Part shown: piece by piece, positions 3,015-15,473 of the stretch | How positions within the stretch are numbered: the first letter of the stretch is position 1 | How the letters are laid out: every line of letters begins with the position of its first letter | IMG/VR virus record: IMGVR_UViG_3300020462_000053 | Span: 1-23,321 of that record | Reading direction: 5' to 3' (one strand) | Origin: a virus | DNA length: 23,321 bases | Translations under genes and position numbers: made by a program | The notes under the pieces: generated by a model | The model's input: only the letters and a program-made list of their open reading frames with translations | What the model was told of the DNA's origin: nothing | Database searches by the model: none

Positions 3015-4073
3015 ATGCAAACACAAAGACTATCATATTTTTCTGGTAGAGATGGATTTCTCTGGTGGGTTGGTGTTGTAGAAGATCGTATAGACCCTAT
3101 GTCACTAGGAAGAGTACGAGTTAGAGTATTTGGTTATCATACATCAGATAAAACAAAACTTGCGACAGAAGATTTGCCGTGGGCGTTTTGCATACAACCT
3201 TGTACATCTGCTTCCGCTGGTGGTGTAGGAACTTCTCCGACAGGCCCGATAGAAGGAACGTGGGTAATTGGTTTCTGGAGAGATCCAGACTTTCTACAAG
3301 AACCTATGGTGTTTGGAACGATACCTGGCTACATCGGCCCTAATGGTGCTCCTCAAGGTGGAGCTCCCTATGATTATTCGCAAGGTCAAAATCGTGAACG
3401 AGGTAAGATAAGTGAGAATGTAGTTATCGCAGATGGAGTAACATCAGAGTTCGACTTACCAGCAAGTTCTAAAGACTCCACAGTATTAGTTACTAAAGAT
3501 GGTGTACCAGATAAAGCAACAAATTCACCACCTTCATCATTCATGAATACTGAACCTTCATCAGCAGAATTTGCTGGTGGAAGAACATACACTAAAAATG
3601 ATTTTCCTTTATCTAACTATGGAACTAGAACTGCAAGGAAGGTAAATGAATTGATACCATTTGCAAGAGATAGGGTTGCACAAGGTATTAATAATTTTCT
3701 TGAATCTAATAGTGGTTGGGATATGTCAATAGGTGACAAGTCTGGTTATAGAAATTATGCACAACAACAAGAGTTATATAATGATCCAAAAGTTAAAGCT
3801 GCAAGTCCTGGCGGTTCATGGCATAACTATGGTGTTGCAGTTGATGTAACAATATACAGACCAGATGGTTCTTGGGATGATGGTACGAGAGGAGATAGTA
3901 ATTATACAGGAAGAGCTCGTTCTGCATTTAAACCATTTAGAATGAAAAATACTGTACCTAATGATATGGGTCATTTTTATCCAGCAGAGTTTAAAATTCA
4001 GATACCACAATCTGTAAGGACAGGAAAAAAGTCTGTTACTGATTTTGCAAGAGAAAGAGGAGTGGATGTTTAA
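3015..4073 (+). CDS. 5: Baseplate hub protein, gp5-like OB domain plus M15 peptidase
   Basis: The 352-residue product is probably the central hub at the tail tip. Residues 10-110 look like the gp5/VgrG OB-fold: GRVRVRVFG at 32-40, LPWAFCIQP at 54-62 and a WVIGFWRDPD-x(3)-EPMVFGTI segment at 83-103. Residues 133-166 form a short beta module common in phage structural proteins. Residues 200-330 look like a peptidase M15 (VanY/D,D- or L,D-peptidase) domain: SGYRN at 243-247, SWHNYGVAVDV at 268-278 (zinc ligands H270 and D277) and DMGHFYP at 317-323 (H320 as third ligand). T4 gp5 carries a lysozyme at the equivalent place, so here a peptide-cleaving enzyme replaces a glycan-cleaving one. The T4 needle is not in this chain; it is encoded by the next gene, which overlaps by one base (TAATG). 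The ribosome site is GGGA at 3004-3007. Confidence 0.85.
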   Translation: MQTQRLSYFSGRDGFLWWVGVVEDRIDPMSLGRVRVRVFGYHTSDKTKLATEDLPWAFCIQPCTSASAGGVGTSPTGPIEGTWVIGFWRDPDFLQEPMVFGTIPGYIGPNGAPQGGAPYDYSQGQNRERGKISENVVIADGVTSEFDLPASSKDSTVLVTKDGVPDKATNSPPSSFMNTEPSSAEFAGGRTYTKNDFPLSNYGTRTARKVNELIPFARDRVAQGINNFLESNSGWDMSIGDKSGYRNYAQQQELYNDPKVKAASPGGSWHNYGVAVDVTIYRPDGSWDDGTRGDSNYTGRARSAFKPFRMKNTVPNDMGHFYPAEFKIQIPQSVRTGKKSVTDFARERGVDV

Positions 4074-5842
4074 TGGCATATGAAATAGAAGAAAGAAAGA
4101 TTAAATTTGAAAATCCACCAGCAAAAGGTACAGAAGTAAATCTAAAAGTTTCTACTCAACAATCACTTAATGGTTTTGCTGATCCTCGTTCTTTCTATCC
4201 TCGTAGAGTAAATGAAGTTGATACAAATAGACTTGCAGTAAATGATGCAACTAAACAGCACCCTGTAGTCAATCTTAAAAGACAAAGAATAGATGATCTG
4301 GTAGGAGAACCAGAAACACAGTATGCATCAAAGTATCCATACAATCATGTAAAGGAAACGGAGTCTGGTCATATCGTAGAGTTTGATGATACACCAGGCC
4401 ATGAACGTATACATGAATATCATAGGTCTGGTACTTTTTACGAAGTACATCCAGATGGTACAAAGGTTACAAAGATTATTGGTGATGATTATGAAATTGT
4501 GCATCAGAATAAAAAGTTAAGAGTAAGAGGAAATATTGAAGTCTACTGTGATGGTGATGCAGATTTATATGTGCGTGGCTCGTTAACAGGACAAGTAGAT
4601 GAGAATATAGATTTACACGCTGGTAAGAATATTAATATTCATGCTGGTAAGAATATGAGATTTTACGCAAATGACTCTATAGAGTTTACAGCACAGAAAG
4701 AACTAACGGCAACATCTGTATCAAACATGACATTACAATCACAAGCAGATATGAATATTAATGCAGAGGGTAGATACCTTACCAATATAAAAGGATTAAG
4801 TAGAATTAATTCAGATGGGTTTATTAGTATAAAATCTCCAAGTTCAATAATGATAAATGGAAATAGCACTATTGATATTCTTGGTGGTGGTGCTATGAAC
4901 TTAAAAGGTAGTTCGATAGATTTAAATGGTTCTAAAGAAAGAAAAGATGTAGAAAAAGTAGAAGATACAAAATATAGAGATAGTTCTGGTGTAAATTTAT
5001 ATAGTGAAGGTAAAGAAGTTGACGCACCATTAGAAGCTACAGTACTGGGTGCAAAAGATCTAAGTGCATTGGCAGATGAACAATCTGTATATGGTGAAGA
5101 TGATGTTCCAAAATCAGATGCAGATATTAAAGCTGCTGTTGCATCTGGAAATGCATTACCCTCTTCATCTTCAGATTATAGTTATAATTCTTTAGATGGA
5201 TCTTATAGTTCAGAAAGTGCATCAAGACCACTGATATCAATTCCAACAGTTCCAGATCTTGGAGGAGAACATGGATATTCAACTGGACAAAATAATTTAA
5301 TTTATACAGAAGCCGCAAAGGTTACATCAATAGTAAAACCTTCATTGATAAAACTTCCAGATGATGGATCTATAGATTACAATATGTATATATCTTCAAA
5401 GTATAAACTTTCCAAACTTACACTTGCACCACCTGTAGGACAGAAAATAAACAAGGGTAAAGAAGAAGCAGAAAAGATTATTAATAAATTAAGAGTTCTT
5501 GCAGTTAATTGTTTAGATCCATTACTTGCAGAATATCCTAAACTAAGAATTAACATGGGATATTTTGAATCAAGGCCTGGCACATCTTCTGCACATTCAT
5601 TAGGTGAAGCAGTTGACATACAGGTTGCAGATGCAAGTAAAGGAGAATACTTTGAGATTGCAATATGGATTAGAGAAAACTTACCACACGATTCTATCAT
5701 ACTACAATATAGAACTACTGGTTCTGGTATGCCTTGGATTCATCTTGGGTGTAAGGAGTCTGGTAATAGATCAGATATGATAACACAATACAATGGAAAA
5801 ACAACAACTGAACTAGGACAGATTGCACAGTATTATGCCTAG
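4073..5842 (+). CDS. Tail spike needle with a C-terminal M15-like peptidase
   Basis: The 589-residue product appears to be the separated needle half of gp5 with an added enzyme. Residues 88-130 match the gp5/VgrG C-terminal trimer start (YPYNHVKETESGH, then DDTPG-x-ERI and YEVHPDGT). Residues 130-285 are short beta repeats (for example HAGKNINIHAGKN at 182-194) expected to form a three-stranded beta-helix. Residues 290-440 are a low-complexity Ser/Asp-rich linker. Residues 450-575 hold a second M15-type domain: SAHSLGEAVDI at 506-516 (H508, D515) and MPWIHLG at 553-559 (H557). The likely job is to pierce the outer membrane as a trimer and cut peptidoglycan peptides. Its stop overlaps the start of the PAAR tip gene by 8 bases, fitting a needle-tip pair. 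Confidence 0.82.
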   Translation: MAYEIEERKIKFENPPAKGTEVNLKVSTQQSLNGFADPRSFYPRRVNEVDTNRLAVNDATKQHPVVNLKRQRIDDLVGEPETQYASKYPYNHVKETESGHIVEFDDTPGHERIHEYHRSGTFYEVHPDGTKVTKIIGDDYEIVHQNKKLRVRGNIEVYCDGDADLYVRGSLTGQVDENIDLHAGKNINIHAGKNMRFYANDSIEFTAQKELTATSVSNMTLQSQADMNINAEGRYLTNIKGLSRINSDGFISIKSPSSIMINGNSTIDILGGGAMNLKGSSIDLNGSKERKDVEKVEDTKYRDSSGVNLYSEGKEVDAPLEATVLGAKDLSALADEQSVYGEDDVPKSDADIKAAVASGNALPSSSSDYSYNSLDGSYSSESASRPLISIPTVPDLGGEHGYSTGQNNLIYTEAAKVTSIVKPSLIKLPDDGSIDYNMYISSKYKLSKLTLAPPVGQKINKGKEEAEKIINKLRVLAVNCLDPLLAEYPKLRINMGYFESRPGTSSAHSLGEAVDIQVADASKGEYFEIAIWIRENLPHDSIILQYRTTGSGMPWIHLGCKESGNRSDMITQYNGKTTTELGQIAQYYA

Positions 5843-6098
5843 TGTATGTAGAAAAGATGATACAGCTGGTGGTGCTCTAAGTGCATCACAAACTAAAGTA
5901 AAGGCGAATGGAAAATTAATTATAGTAGATGGTGATTCAGTTGCTTCTCATGGTTTGTCACCACATGATTCAGCAACAATTTCTGCTGGTTCTGGTATGA
6001 AGGTTAAAATTGGTGGCGTTAAAGTTTGTAATTCTGGAGATCTTGCATCATGTGGACATAGTGCAAGTAGTGATAGTAATGTTAAAGTAGGGGATTAG
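5835..6098 (+). CDS. PAAR-domain spike tip protein
   Basis: The 87-residue product starts at ATG 5835; an in-frame TTG at 5823 lies further inside the previous gene and is less likely. It opens MPSVCRKDDTAGG and has the Gly-rich short beta repeats of PAAR proteins, which form a sharp cone capping a VgrG/gp5 needle (T4 gp5.4 is the analogue). H39, H44, C65 and H75 are candidates for the tip metal site, which is three His and one Cys in known PAAR structures; C73 is an alternative. The gene order needle-PAAR and the 8-base overlap support a stoichiometric tip complex. Confidence 0.85.
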   Translation: MPSVCRKDDTAGGALSASQTKVKANGKLIIVDGDSVASHGLSPHDSATISAGSGMKVKIGGVKVCNSGDLASCGHSASSDSNVKVGD

Positions 6099-11735: not shown

Positions 11736-13010
11736 ATGGCAAAACAAGTAATAGGAATAGGTAATGCAGCTAATGATGGAAGTGGAGATCCATTAAGAAC
11801 TGCTGGTGATAAAGTAAATGATAACTTTAATGAATTTTATAGTAAACTTGGAGATGGAACAAATTTATATCCTTTGACATTTCCAAATGCAAATGCTACT
11901 ATTTTAACAACCTCTAATGCAGATGTAGGTGCAACTACAACATCAAGTTTAAATGCAGATCATATTTTAATAAATGATGATGGTATTTTGAAAAAGATTA
12001 CTCCAGCTAATCTTGGAATAGGTAGTGCTTATACGTTATTAGTACAAGAAGAAGGCAGTAATACATCTACAACTGGTGCTACCACTTTAAACTTTGTAGG
12101 TGCTGGGGTTACTGCGTCTGGTGCTGGTGCAACAAAAACTTTAACTATACCAGGCGGATCTGGTATAAATGTGCAAGATGAAGGTGGTGCATTAAGTACT
12201 GCTGGAACTACTTTTAATTTTGTAGGTTCTGGTGTAACTGCATCTGGAACTGGTGCAACAAAAACTATAACTATTCCTGGCGGCGCTTCACAAAATGTAT
12301 TTGATAAAGTTGCAGTAAGTGGACAATCTAATGTAGTAGCAGATAGTGCAACTGATACTCTTACTTTAGTTGCTGGTACTAATGTTACGATTACTACAGA
12401 CGCTAACGCTGATAGTGTTACAATTAATTCTACTGGAACTACAGATTTAAACAGTTTATCTGCTGGTGTAGTTAATATACAAAATGATAGTATTGGATTT
12501 ATTGATGCAGATGATAGTAATAATAGTAAGAAAGAATCAATCGCTGACTTTTTAGTTGCAATTTCTGGTTCTGGTATTGTTATAAGTGGTGGTCAACTAA
12601 CAGCAGCTACTGGTACACTATCAAATGTTGTAGAGGATACTACGCCTCAACTAGGTGGCGATTTAGATGTAAATGGCAAAACTATTATGCATACTTTTAA
12701 CATAACTGCAAGTGGAACTGATCATTATGTTTTTGCTGATACTGGAAATGTTTGGTTTCCATCATCAGAAAATGATCCGACCTTATATTTACGTAGAGGT
12801 GAACAATATAAATTTAATAATACTTCTGGTGGACACCCAATTAGAATACAATCAACGTCTGGTGCAAGTGGAACAGCATATAATGTTGGTGTAACAAATA
12901 ATGCTGGTTCTGGTGCAGTTATATTTAAAGTATCAATGAGTGCGCCTGCAACACTTTATTACCAATGCACATCTCATGCAAACATGAATGGTACAATTAA
13001 TATAGTTTAA
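11736..13010 (+). CDS. Fibre or adhesin protein with cupredoxin-like C-terminus
   Basis: The 424-residue product begins with a module (IGIGNAANDGSGDPLR, then GDKVNDNFNEFY, residues 6-35) that is common at the head of fibre-type structural proteins of marine myoviruses and is probably the baseplate or fibre joint. Residues 103-141 and 146-183 are two copies of a 38-39-residue beta repeat (VQ-D/E-EG ... TIPGG). Residues 230-315 include another fibre segment with PQLGGDLDVNGK. Residues 318-424 look like a cupredoxin: H367 in GGHPIRI, then C411, H414 and M417 in CTSHANMNGT, a complete type 1 copper ligand set with the C-x2-H-x2-M-x-G spacing of plastocyanin-like proteins. It may bind copper or may use the fold only as a binding domain. 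It is the first gene of the fibre cassette. Confidence 0.75.
   Translation: MAKQVIGIGNAANDGSGDPLRTAGDKVNDNFNEFYSKLGDGTNLYPLTFPNANATILTTSNADVGATTTSSLNADHILINDDGILKKITPANLGIGSAYTLLVQEEGSNTSTTGATTLNFVGAGVTASGAGATKTLTIPGGSGINVQDEGGALSTAGTTFNFVGSGVTASGTGATKTITIPGGASQNVFDKVAVSGQSNVVADSATDTLTLVAGTNVTITTDANADSVTINSTGTTDLNSLSAGVVNIQNDSIGFIDADDSNNSKKESIADFLVAISGSGIVISGGQLTAATGTLSNVVEDTTPQLGGDLDVNGKTIMHTFNITASGTDHYVFADTGNVWFPSSENDPTLYLRRGEQYKFNNTSGGHPIRIQSTSGASGTAYNVGVTNNAGSGAVIFKVSMSAPATLYYQCTSHANMNGTINIV
12042..12284 (+). repeat. Tandem 38-39-residue beta repeat in the fibre protein
   Basis: Two copies lie at 12042-12158 and 12171-12284. They share VQ-x-EG, NFVG-x-GVTASG, GATKT and TIPGG, and long stretches are near identical at the DNA level (for example around GGTGCAACAAAAACT). 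This fits a fairly recent internal duplication in the fibre shaft. Confidence 0.85.
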
Positions 13011-13382: not shown

Positions 13383-13586
13383 ATGGCATATAAAATCGGA
13401 GATACAACTGTAATAGATAATTCTCGTAATGTAACTACTGGAATGGTAACTGTTACATCAACAACTAATTTTGTATCACCAAATGGAAACACTGCTGGAA
13501 GGCCAGGTAGTCCATCTGTCGGACATATGTATTTTGATACTGACTTAAAAAAATTACTGACCTATAATGGTACTGATTGGAAATAG
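13383..13586 (+). CDS. 67-residue protein duplicating the next fibre's head module
   Basis: It is a complete small reading frame beginning MAYKIGDTTVIDNSR, identical to the first 15 residues of the 625-residue fibre that follows. The similarity continues to the end: TNFVSPNGNTAGRPGSPSVG aligns with TNLVIPSGTTSNRPTGAVG, and MYFDTDLKKLL with LYFDTDLGKLL. It stops exactly where the fibre's head module ends (DWK against SWIV). A GGTGAG ribosome site lies at 13375-13380. Either this is a functional stand-alone head, for example a capping or joint subunit, or it is what is left of a fibre whose distal part was lost. The intact frame and ribosome site favour function. Confidence 0.68.
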   Translation: MAYKIGDTTVIDNSRNVTTGMVTVTSTTNFVSPNGNTAGRPGSPSVGHMYFDTDLKKLLTYNGTDWK

Positions 13587-13790
13587 GAAAAGAATATGGC
13601 ATATAAAATTGGTGATACAACTGTAATAGATAATAGTAGAGAGTTAACTGCTGTTGGTGTAACTCCATCTACTAATTTAGTTATACCATCTGGAACAACT
13701 TCAAACAGACCAACTGGTGCTGTAGGAAAATTATATTTTGATACTGATTTAGGAAAACTTTTGGTTCATGATGGAACATCATGGATTGTT
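13383..13790 (+). repeat. Duplicated fibre-head coding module
   Basis: The 67-codon module at 13383-13583 is followed 10 bases after its stop codon by a second copy at 13596-13790 that continues into the long fibre. The first 39 bases of the two copies differ at only two third-codon positions. A unit like this could support recombination between fibre genes. Confidence 0.8.
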
Positions 13791-15473
13791 GCCTCTACTA
13801 CAGCAGATGGTGATCTTGCAGTTCATGGTTCAACATATACTTTTCCTATAAATGGTGGAGATGAAAATCCAAATAAAATTACTACTTATCTTCCTTTCAA
13901 TGAAGCAGCTACTAATTTTACATTTACAAAAAGAATACATGGCAGCAATAATTATGAGTATTGGGATGCTTATGTGAAAATAAAAGGTATTCCTTATGAG
14001 GTTCAATTAATGCCTTCATTAGATTCGCATGGAACAGCAGGTTGGCCTTGTCCTCAAAAGCCTTATACTAATTCTGGTGCTGTTAATACAGATGTAAATG
14101 CATTTCAACCACACGCAACATTATCTTTAGATAATACTGCTGTTAATGTAAATATAGGTGGTGCTGCTGCTGGAGGTGGAGCTTCTTATGCTCCAGCACA
14201 ATCTTGGATATTTGATAGTAAATTTCCAAAACAAGGATTTTTAATAGAATCTCAAAATAGTGGTTGGGGTCTTGATGGTGGTGGACAAGGTATTTACAAA
14301 TATAGTGACACTCAATATGTTACCTTTACAAATCACAATCAATTAAATGCTTCAGAGTTATCTAGTGGAATGGGTAAAATAAATCTTAGATGCTATAATC
14401 CAAATAATATAGTGGAAGGACAAGACGTTACTACTAATGCAACAAATCCTGTTTGGAATAAAGATTATGATTCAACTAATGCATATAAAATTAGAGGTAT
14501 GGTTTATGGTGTATGGAAAAGTGCAACAGCAAATCAACTTACTGTTATGTATACAACCAATAAAGGTTTGACTCAACAAAGTAGTCTTGGTAATCCAAAC
14601 TGGTATCAAAGAATAAATATTTTTGATATTAACATGACTACTGGTGCAGTTGTTTCTAATTCAACAATTTCTCATGATGAGTTTAGACCAACTAGTAGTA
14701 ATAGTTTAAACACTGGTACTCCTCTTATGCCATCAGGTCATGGTTTTACTGTATGCGAATGTTCTACTCATGTTACTATGTGTTCATGGCCAGATTATGC
14801 TGGTGGTTCAACTCACCCATTCGCATTTTGGATTTGGGATAAGGCAAATAGAGATCTTAGAGTTTTTCAACCAGAACTGTATGATGATTCTACTTTTAAT
14901 AGTAGTTCTCTTTCTAATCAATCTGCTTCATATTATAGTGGAGTTTGGATGAATCATTTTAAAATGAATGATAAAATATATTTAGCAACTAAAAATACTG
15001 GTGCGACTCATAATACTCATCAAGGTGTTCATATTTACGAAACATCATCAACTAGTGCAACTCCTTATATGCGAATATATAATGATACTAATAATGATCA
15101 AATTTTTAATGCCCGTTCACAATTTCAACAACTAAGACCTTTATTTTCAAATGATACCATTACATATTCTCATCTTGGTTTGTATGATTGGAATGGAGCA
15201 AACTATAATACTGAAGGTGAAACTGCATTAATGTATAGTGGCGTAACAGTAAATCCAGAAACTGATAAAGGTATGATTCAAACAAAATTTGGGCCAGGTA
15301 CTAAATCTGGAGCTTGGTCTAGTAGTAACAATATAACTTATTATACAAATCCAGTTAAACAATCAAATGGTACTACATTATGGACAGATTCAGCAGGAAC
15401 TAATGGTTCAAATCAAGGTGGTTGGAAAACTGACATGACAACACGAAAATTCTTTGGTGGTGGTACTCAATAG
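13596..15473 (+). CDS. Large tail fibre or receptor-binding candidate
   Basis: The 625-residue product starts with the MAYKIGDTTVIDNSR head module (residues 1-65) that probably joins it to the tail. The remaining 560 residues are beta-rich, with many Gly, Asn, Thr, Tyr and Trp. They contain no domain I recognise, as is usual for fast-changing receptor-binding regions. A compact cluster C387-E-C389-x2-H392-x3-C396 lies in the middle and could hold a metal or disulphides. AGGAAAAG at 13586-13593 is the ribosome site. It is the largest protein of the fibre cassette and the best candidate for host recognition, but this is inferred from context only. No tail-fibre chaperone follows it in the window; the next gene is gp8. 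Confidence 0.7.
   Translation: MAYKIGDTTVIDNSRELTAVGVTPSTNLVIPSGTTSNRPTGAVGKLYFDTDLGKLLVHDGTSWIVASTTADGDLAVHGSTYTFPINGGDENPNKITTYLPFNEAATNFTFTKRIHGSNNYEYWDAYVKIKGIPYEVQLMPSLDSHGTAGWPCPQKPYTNSGAVNTDVNAFQPHATLSLDNTAVNVNIGGAAAGGGASYAPAQSWIFDSKFPKQGFLIESQNSGWGLDGGGQGIYKYSDTQYVTFTNHNQLNASELSSGMGKINLRCYNPNNIVEGQDVTTNATNPVWNKDYDSTNAYKIRGMVYGVWKSATANQLTVMYTTNKGLTQQSSLGNPNWYQRINIFDINMTTGAVVSNSTISHDEFRPTSSNSLNTGTPLMPSGHGFTVCECSTHVTMCSWPDYAGGSTHPFAFWIWDKANRDLRVFQPELYDDSTFNSSSLSNQSASYYSGVWMNHFKMNDKIYLATKNTGATHNTHQGVHIYETSSTSATPYMRIYNDTNNDQIFNARSQFQQLRPLFSNDTITYSHLGLYDWNGANYNTEGETALMYSGVTVNPETDKGMIQTKFGPGTKSGAWSSSNNITYYTNPVKQSNGTTLWTDSAGTNGSNQGGWKTDMTTRKFFGGGTQ

Follow-up and report, generated by a model that had tools for sequence, protein, structure and literature searches.

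The closest described fold to the phage domain reported here, and its best profile match in the PDB, is domain I of the three-domain copper nitrite reductase of Hyphomicrobium denitrificans (2dv6/6tfd; 2vmj). The ligand loop of 2vmj, CTPHPFM, has the same C-x2-H-x2-M form as the phage domain; however, the nitrite reductase is an exported enzyme with a second copper centre, whereas the phage has one such domain, on a baseplate protein, with Pro directly after its first His ligand. Amicyanin (1aac and relatives) shares the C-x2-H-x2-M loop, and in plasmid-borne amicyanin-type cupredoxins all four ligands align with those of the phage domain, but amicyanin is an exported, free electron carrier with His-Asn, whereas the phage domain has His-Pro and no export signal. 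Plastocyanin, including the PetE of cyanophages, agrees with the phage domain in fold and ligand set, but has a C-x2-H-x4-M loop and His-Asn; moreover, PetE is encoded by a separate, signal-bearing gene within the same cyanophages and is not the tail domain. Rusticyanin (1rcy) has a similar fold but is a longer, acid-stable periplasmic electron carrier.

To our knowledge, the metal sites of phage tails have so far been mostly iron (His-x-His) or zinc (PAAR tips). Iron sites of the HxH type are found in tail fibres such as T4 gp37 and that of Alteromonas phage R22Y (PMC11705849). These are octahedral, His-only iron sites in a trimeric needle, whereas the domain studied here has a predicted type 1 copper set within one chain; both place a metal, in the case of the cupredoxin domain a predicted one, on the phage tail. 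The nearest relative of the whole protein is the T4 gp9/gp10-like connector of cyanophages, phrog_677, with which it has the PF07880 N-terminus in common and whose family profile includes the C-terminal domain, but whose annotation goes no further than 'connector' and says nothing of a copper site, and which has an ortholog without the domain in Methylophilales phage Melnitz. For S-SM1, 41 virion proteins are reported (PMC3037559).

The connector gene and its baseplate neighbours

The DNA analysed (hereafter the window) is a viral stretch of 23,321 nucleotides, positions 1 to 23,321 of IMG/VR record IMGVR_UViG_3300020462_000053. The gene of interest and its parts are as follows, in window positions.

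11736..13010, + strand: whole gene, 424 amino acids, T4 gp9/gp10-like baseplate wedge/tail-fibre connector (ORF; phrog_677; baseplate gene neighbours)
11742..11858, + strand: N-terminal attachment segment, residues 3-41, T4_gp9_10_N (PF07880, E 7.6e-8, 33.1 bits against a cut-off of 25; helix predicted at residues 20-38)
11859..12686, + strand: shaft, residues 42-317, Gly/Thr-rich and of low complexity (pLDDT <50 over residues 33-316 in the full-length model)
12687..13007, + strand: C-terminal domain of predicted cupredoxin fold, residues 318-424 (AF2 model; Foldseek and VIA-align matches)

An earlier reading made from the letters alone (the sequence-only reading) had called the product a fibre protein. 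It is a tail protein, but specifically a T4 gp9/gp10-like baseplate wedge connector and not a generic fibre: the N-terminal gp9/10 domain is present, with PF07880 above its cut-off, and the protein matches phrog_677, 'baseplate wedge tail fiber protein connector', over its whole length (E 1.8e-61). The shaft had no confident fold in the full-length model, as expected when the monomer of a trimer is modelled. On inspection, no hydrophobic leader that could serve as an export signal for the 424-residue protein was apparent at the N-terminus (MAKQVIGIGNAANDGSG).

The connector gene is located between gp6/gp7-like and gp8-like genes, and the genes on the same strand encode a gp5-like OB/VanY protein, a second gp5-like protein, a PAAR-like tip, a nuclease, gp25, gp6 and a gp7-like wedge protein, the last three upstream of the connector, as well as gp8 downstream of it and a DUF4815 protein. 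This cluster is a T4-like baseplate operon. The closest relatives of the window's gp6 are those of Melnitz (56% identity), followed by Pelagibacter phages (46-48%) and cyanophages (38%), suggesting that the host was a SAR11- or OM43-like heterotroph rather than a photosynthetic cell and that the phage is probably pelagiphage/OM43-like, not a cyanophage.

Several other features of the window were observed. The gp5-like OB domain is fused to a VanY-type peptidase (3015-4073), which replaces the usual lysozyme, and the PAAR-like spike tip is encoded separately (5823-6098). A 67-residue ORF (13383-13586) repeats the N-terminus (MAYKIGDTTVIDNSR...) of the next protein, which has 625 residues (13596-15473) and a weak match to Mtd_N (major tropism determinant); the short ORF is possibly a truncated duplicate of a receptor-binding protein. 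Near the left end, a small protein (18-521) with an apparent signal peptide and an HELVH motif weakly matches SprT-like/DUF6647 metallopeptidases.

Predicted fold and ligand register

The AF2 model of residues 318-424, built from a 25-sequence alignment, had a mean pLDDT of 82.3, a pTM of 0.73 and eight strands arranged as the Greek-key beta sandwich of the cupredoxin superfamily. Foldseek against the PDB returned 18 matches at E<1e-3, all of them nitrite reductase domain I, rusticyanin, plastocyanin or amicyanin, so that structure prediction bore out the cupredoxin fold proposed from the letters, with copper proteins as the top matches. The best VIA-align match was domain I of 2dv6 (Z 11.0, rmsd 2.0, 91 residues, 20% identity), and rusticyanin crystal structures gave Z of 9.5-10.5 (9.8-10.5 over 93 residues for 1rcy). 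In the full-length model the C-terminal domain was again confident and independently folded, with pLDDT of about 80-87 from residue 350. That AF2 forced a cupredoxin fold on the domain is argued against by profile matches made without any structure, namely to 2vmj (E 2.2e-4) and in hhalign (E 1.4e-8). Residues 318-424 are thus, as modelled, a cupredoxin-fold domain. No solved structure of a close relative was found. Giant-virus 'Beta-sandwich proteins' in BFVD (A0A481Z6J5, A0A481Z7Q7 and A0A481YWX9; pithovirus-, marseillevirus-like) also match the model, with TM of 0.70-0.74.

The predicted copper ligands, and the residue after the first of them, are located as follows; counts are from a set of relatives retrieved without the ligands.

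12834..12836, + strand: H367, N-terminal His ligand (70/70; on the ligand His of cupredoxins)
12837..12839, + strand: P368, after the first His ligand, where the cellular cupredoxins compared have N/T/D (conservation 0.986)
12966..12968, + strand: C411, thiolate ligand (69/70; on the ligand Cys of cupredoxins)
12975..12977, + strand: H414, second His ligand (69/70; on the ligand His of cupredoxins)
12984..12986, + strand: M417, axial Met ligand (70/70; on the ligand Met of cupredoxins)

The translated ORF places all four residues where the sequence-only reading had put them, preceded by LYYQ, the loop being LYYQ-C-TS-H-AN-M-N-G. Two details of that reading need amendment. Apart from H414 of the motif, it had named one His, H367, in the last 107 residues, whereas there are four in all (H319, H330, H367 and H414), with only H367 and H414 invariant; and it had given the motif as C-x2-H-x2-M-G, in which C411, H414 and M417 are right but N418 lies between M417 and G419, making M-x-G in this protein and M-G-G in many relatives.

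Three comparisons placed the ligands on those of known cupredoxins. In a phmmer search with the window sequence alone, all four matched those of the fern plastocyanin 1kdi (E 0.033). The 25-sequence profile matched the N-terminal cupredoxin domain of the copper nitrite reductase 2vmj (E 2.2e-4) and, more weakly, amicyanins (E 0.25-0.94). When 104 phage domains were compared by hhalign with eight true cupredoxins, taken from plasmids and from PetE genes of cyanophages, the probability was 95.5% and the E 1.4e-8, with the four ligands in register, GGHPIRI lying over MPHNVAF and YYQCTSHANMNG over YDYTCTPHPFMRG. The His...Cys-x-x-His...Met pattern of the superfamily is thus in register by both alignment and conservation, and the claim of a complete type 1 copper ligand set (H367, C411, H414 and M417) holds as a prediction, the proximity of the four being read from their alignment register.

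The possibility that this is a chance motif in an unrelated beta domain would find some comfort in family models, since the window domain scored 16.0 bits against Pfam PF00127 Copper-bind, under the 21.2 cut-off (the best of 25 relatives reached E 0.0027), and 13.2 bits against the NCBIfam amicyanin model, whose cut-off is 110.2. It is nevertheless extremely improbable, and refuted as far as computation allows, given the profile-profile E of 1.4e-8, the Z of 11 and the near-invariance of the ligands across hundreds of copies. A plant At5g54830-like domain, PF25489, was matched by 9 of the 25 phage domains about as well as PF00127, both below cut-off, and may itself be cupredoxin-like; a scan of the window's own record with PF25489 gave no match, and the control likewise had no match anywhere.

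The ligand context had been described as plastocyanin-like, which stands for the fold and the ligand set. The loop, however, is C-x2-H-x2-M, of the length found in amicyanin and nitrite reductase domain I, and Pro follows the first His in nearly all phage copies, where the cellular set of the hhalign comparison has Asn, Thr or Asp. Nor is the protein a NirK, which has two cupredoxin domains with type 2 copper between them, whereas there is a single cupredoxin domain in this protein and in the whole window. By fold and ligands, it is a divergent, phage-specific cupredoxin-fold domain and not a plastocyanin. A published viral 'nirK' was considered as the same thing and rejected, being 67-70% identical to bacterial NirK and having two copper motifs (PMC8115048).

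The His-Pro pair bears on whether the domain might be redox-active, cycling between Cu(II) and Cu(I) at the cell surface, for instance as a disulphide trigger or for protection of the virion against peroxide or superoxide. In blue copper proteins (e.g. plastocyanin and amicyanin), the residue following the first His ligand contributes a backbone NH that donates to the Cys sulphur. Pro at this place removes the donor, so that the phage site may differ in electronic properties and may lack the tuning of an electron carrier. In addition, no redox partner or second copper centre was seen adjacent to the domain, and its position in the virion varies. Although the type 1 set is complete, the axial Met is invariant and the nearest folds are electron-transfer domains, we regard a redox function as quite improbable.

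Conservation, variants and spread

All four ligands were present in 40 of 40 clusters that spanned the whole site, down to 28% identity to the window; these came from 42 clusters formed at 80% identity from 165 hits, a set retrieved in part with the motif itself. Because of this, the search was redone with the first 36-42 residues of the domain, which contain no ligand. Of the 69 untruncated copies in the window-type subfamily, 68 then had the full set; column by column, the first His was present in 70/70, C in 69/70, the second His in 69/70 and M in 70/70, and the ligand columns reached a conservation of 0.986-1.00, compared with a median of 0.69 in the half of the domain that had played no part in retrieval. 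A third subfamily retrieved in the same way was complete in 59 of 60 untruncated copies, the exception being an apparent frameshift, and a second in 48 of 59. Among the 11 incomplete copies of the latter, one (L286) has a longer last His-Met spacing, and the others are chimeras that include peptidase-like sequence and have the second half of the domain displaced or missing. The sequence-only reading had proposed conservation of H/C/H/M as a check and would have abandoned its idea had the rest of the domain been conserved without them; we found the opposite, the ligands being among the most conserved positions of the half not used in the search. Close relatives of the window domain differ by dN 0.039 against dS 0.095-0.145, and a 77% relative by dN 0.14 against dS 0.76, giving dN/dS of about 0.19-0.4 and indicating that the domain is under purifying selection.

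At L275, L284, L285, L289, L292, L294, L295, L299, L301 and L303, half of a cupredoxin domain is fused to peptidase S8-like sequence within a large phage protein; in some of these chimeras, the C-x2-H-x2-M half lies about 215 residues further on, as if a protease had been inserted into the cupredoxin.

Real ligand loss was found in two cases: in L235, C->S and H->T changes are present with the rest of the domain kept (LRYVSGTTAGMTG), and in a stand-alone 112-residue protein of cyanophage PSS2 (L159, GU071090.1 61960-62298), C->A and H->T changes, again with the rest kept (LYYYAVGTAAMGG). Ligand-free variants of the domain thus exist but are rare. They are what might be expected if the domain were a plain beta-sandwich adhesin, its four residues retained for packing or for another metal, such as zinc, and copper having no part, and the scarcity of free copper where virions assemble would also fit. 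We consider such an adhesin distinctly unlikely, however, as H, C, H and M are jointly near-invariant in the three independent ligand-free samples, and a thiolate, a thioether and two imidazoles in cupredoxin register are a copper set.

The suggestion that the domain is widespread but under-described in marine phages was supported. A tblastn search (E<1e-3) found it in 356 of 50,697 phage records, nearly all from phages of Synechococcus or Prochlorococcus or from other marine phages; further Pelagibacter and Methylophilales phages were recovered with a query from a different subfamily, and IMG/VR scans placed it at hundreds of loci at least. The families containing it are named otherwise: matches in BFVD include cyanophage tail fibre and connector proteins, none of them named cupredoxin. 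Among intact ORFs, 64 have it at the N-terminus, 58 at the C-terminus and 53 in the middle, and a single protein may contain as many as four copies (multi-copy ORFs include L136, L140 and L149). For example, the tail spike PSSM2_298 of P-SSM2 has two copies, and the T7-like phage P-GSP1 also carries the domain. In Melnitz, the equivalent connector has none, whereas a tail fibre of the close variant Melnitz-2 has one, which suggests that the domain is not essential at the connector position. It behaves as a mobile module of marine phage tail proteins.

The sequence-only reading had also raised a fold borrowed from the host, for which we found no sign in the form of a recent loan from host plastocyanin. 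A scan of cellular genomes for the phage-type motif returned a single contig (L141, NZGL01000008.1) and thus no cellular donor, although a cellular family may exist. This contig, labelled a Gammaproteobacteria MAG, encodes two copies of the domain within large ORFs of tail-like character and probably represents phage DNA that was binned with the MAG. No PF00127 match was present in that genome.

This distribution also bears on a receptor-binding module, in which a copper-loaded or empty head would recognise a protein on the host surface, for instance a receptor for metal uptake. The domain is on the surface of baseplate and fibre proteins, the site is invariant amid a variable surface, and for HxH-bearing phage tails an iron 'Trojan horse' has been proposed (PMC11705849), of which this would be a possible copper analogue. 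However, phages of Synechococcus/Prochlorococcus, Pelagibacter and Methylophilales all carry the domain, making one common receptor unlikely, and most copies are N-terminal or mid-fibre instead of at the tips. On balance, a receptor-binding module seems unlikely to us.

A possible structural role and its meaning

The explanation that we favour, with moderate confidence, is an intact type 1 site on the C-terminal, probably distal, end of the gp9/gp10-like connector, with the metal acting mainly as a structural clamp and not as an electron carrier. The connector would be synthesised and assembled in the cytoplasm, where free copper is scarce, and would not be exported; the domain would fold around a pre-formed empty site and then take copper from the lysate or from seawater. 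The bound metal would lock the open end of the sandwich by fixing its loops, and the locked domain would form a rigid, protease-resistant head of a trimeric fibre or connector, touching a neighbouring fibre or the cell surface. A structural role is preferred to a redox one because the module is present in many unrelated positions, with no common partner protein and no export signal. Two observations pull away from the clamp: the ligand-free relatives (PSS2 and L235) suggest that the fold can do something without metal, and the strict retention of the axial Met exceeds the need of a plain clamp, leaving room for a role in redox or copper affinity.

A wider proposal is that copper-loaded tail sites are present in a large share of T4-like and some T7-like marine phages, the copper acting in infection through recognition of a host metal-uptake receptor or redox signalling at attachment. 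We give this proposal a low probability. About 18 copper sites per virion would be expected were the connector present as six trimers.

Among the titles, abstracts and term counts of the open-access literature, nothing was found that describes a cupredoxin domain in a tail protein of a phage; since automatic domain databases may already flag the fold and the search covered open-access sources only, we claim no priority. For surveys of viruses, the data advise caution against labelling such domains as plastocyanin-like or nitrite-reductase-like metabolic genes, and they provide a functional hypothesis for a module hidden in families called 'connector' or 'hypothetical'. Conserved across the genomes of hundreds of marine phages, such a type 1 copper set would constitute a metal site of a class new to virions, and the domain offers a testable link between phages and the trace-metal chemistry of the ocean. 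Judging from the conserved ligands, many marine phage particles may carry copper on their tails and, if the tails are indeed copper-loaded, virions would in addition make up a reservoir of bound copper in seawater.
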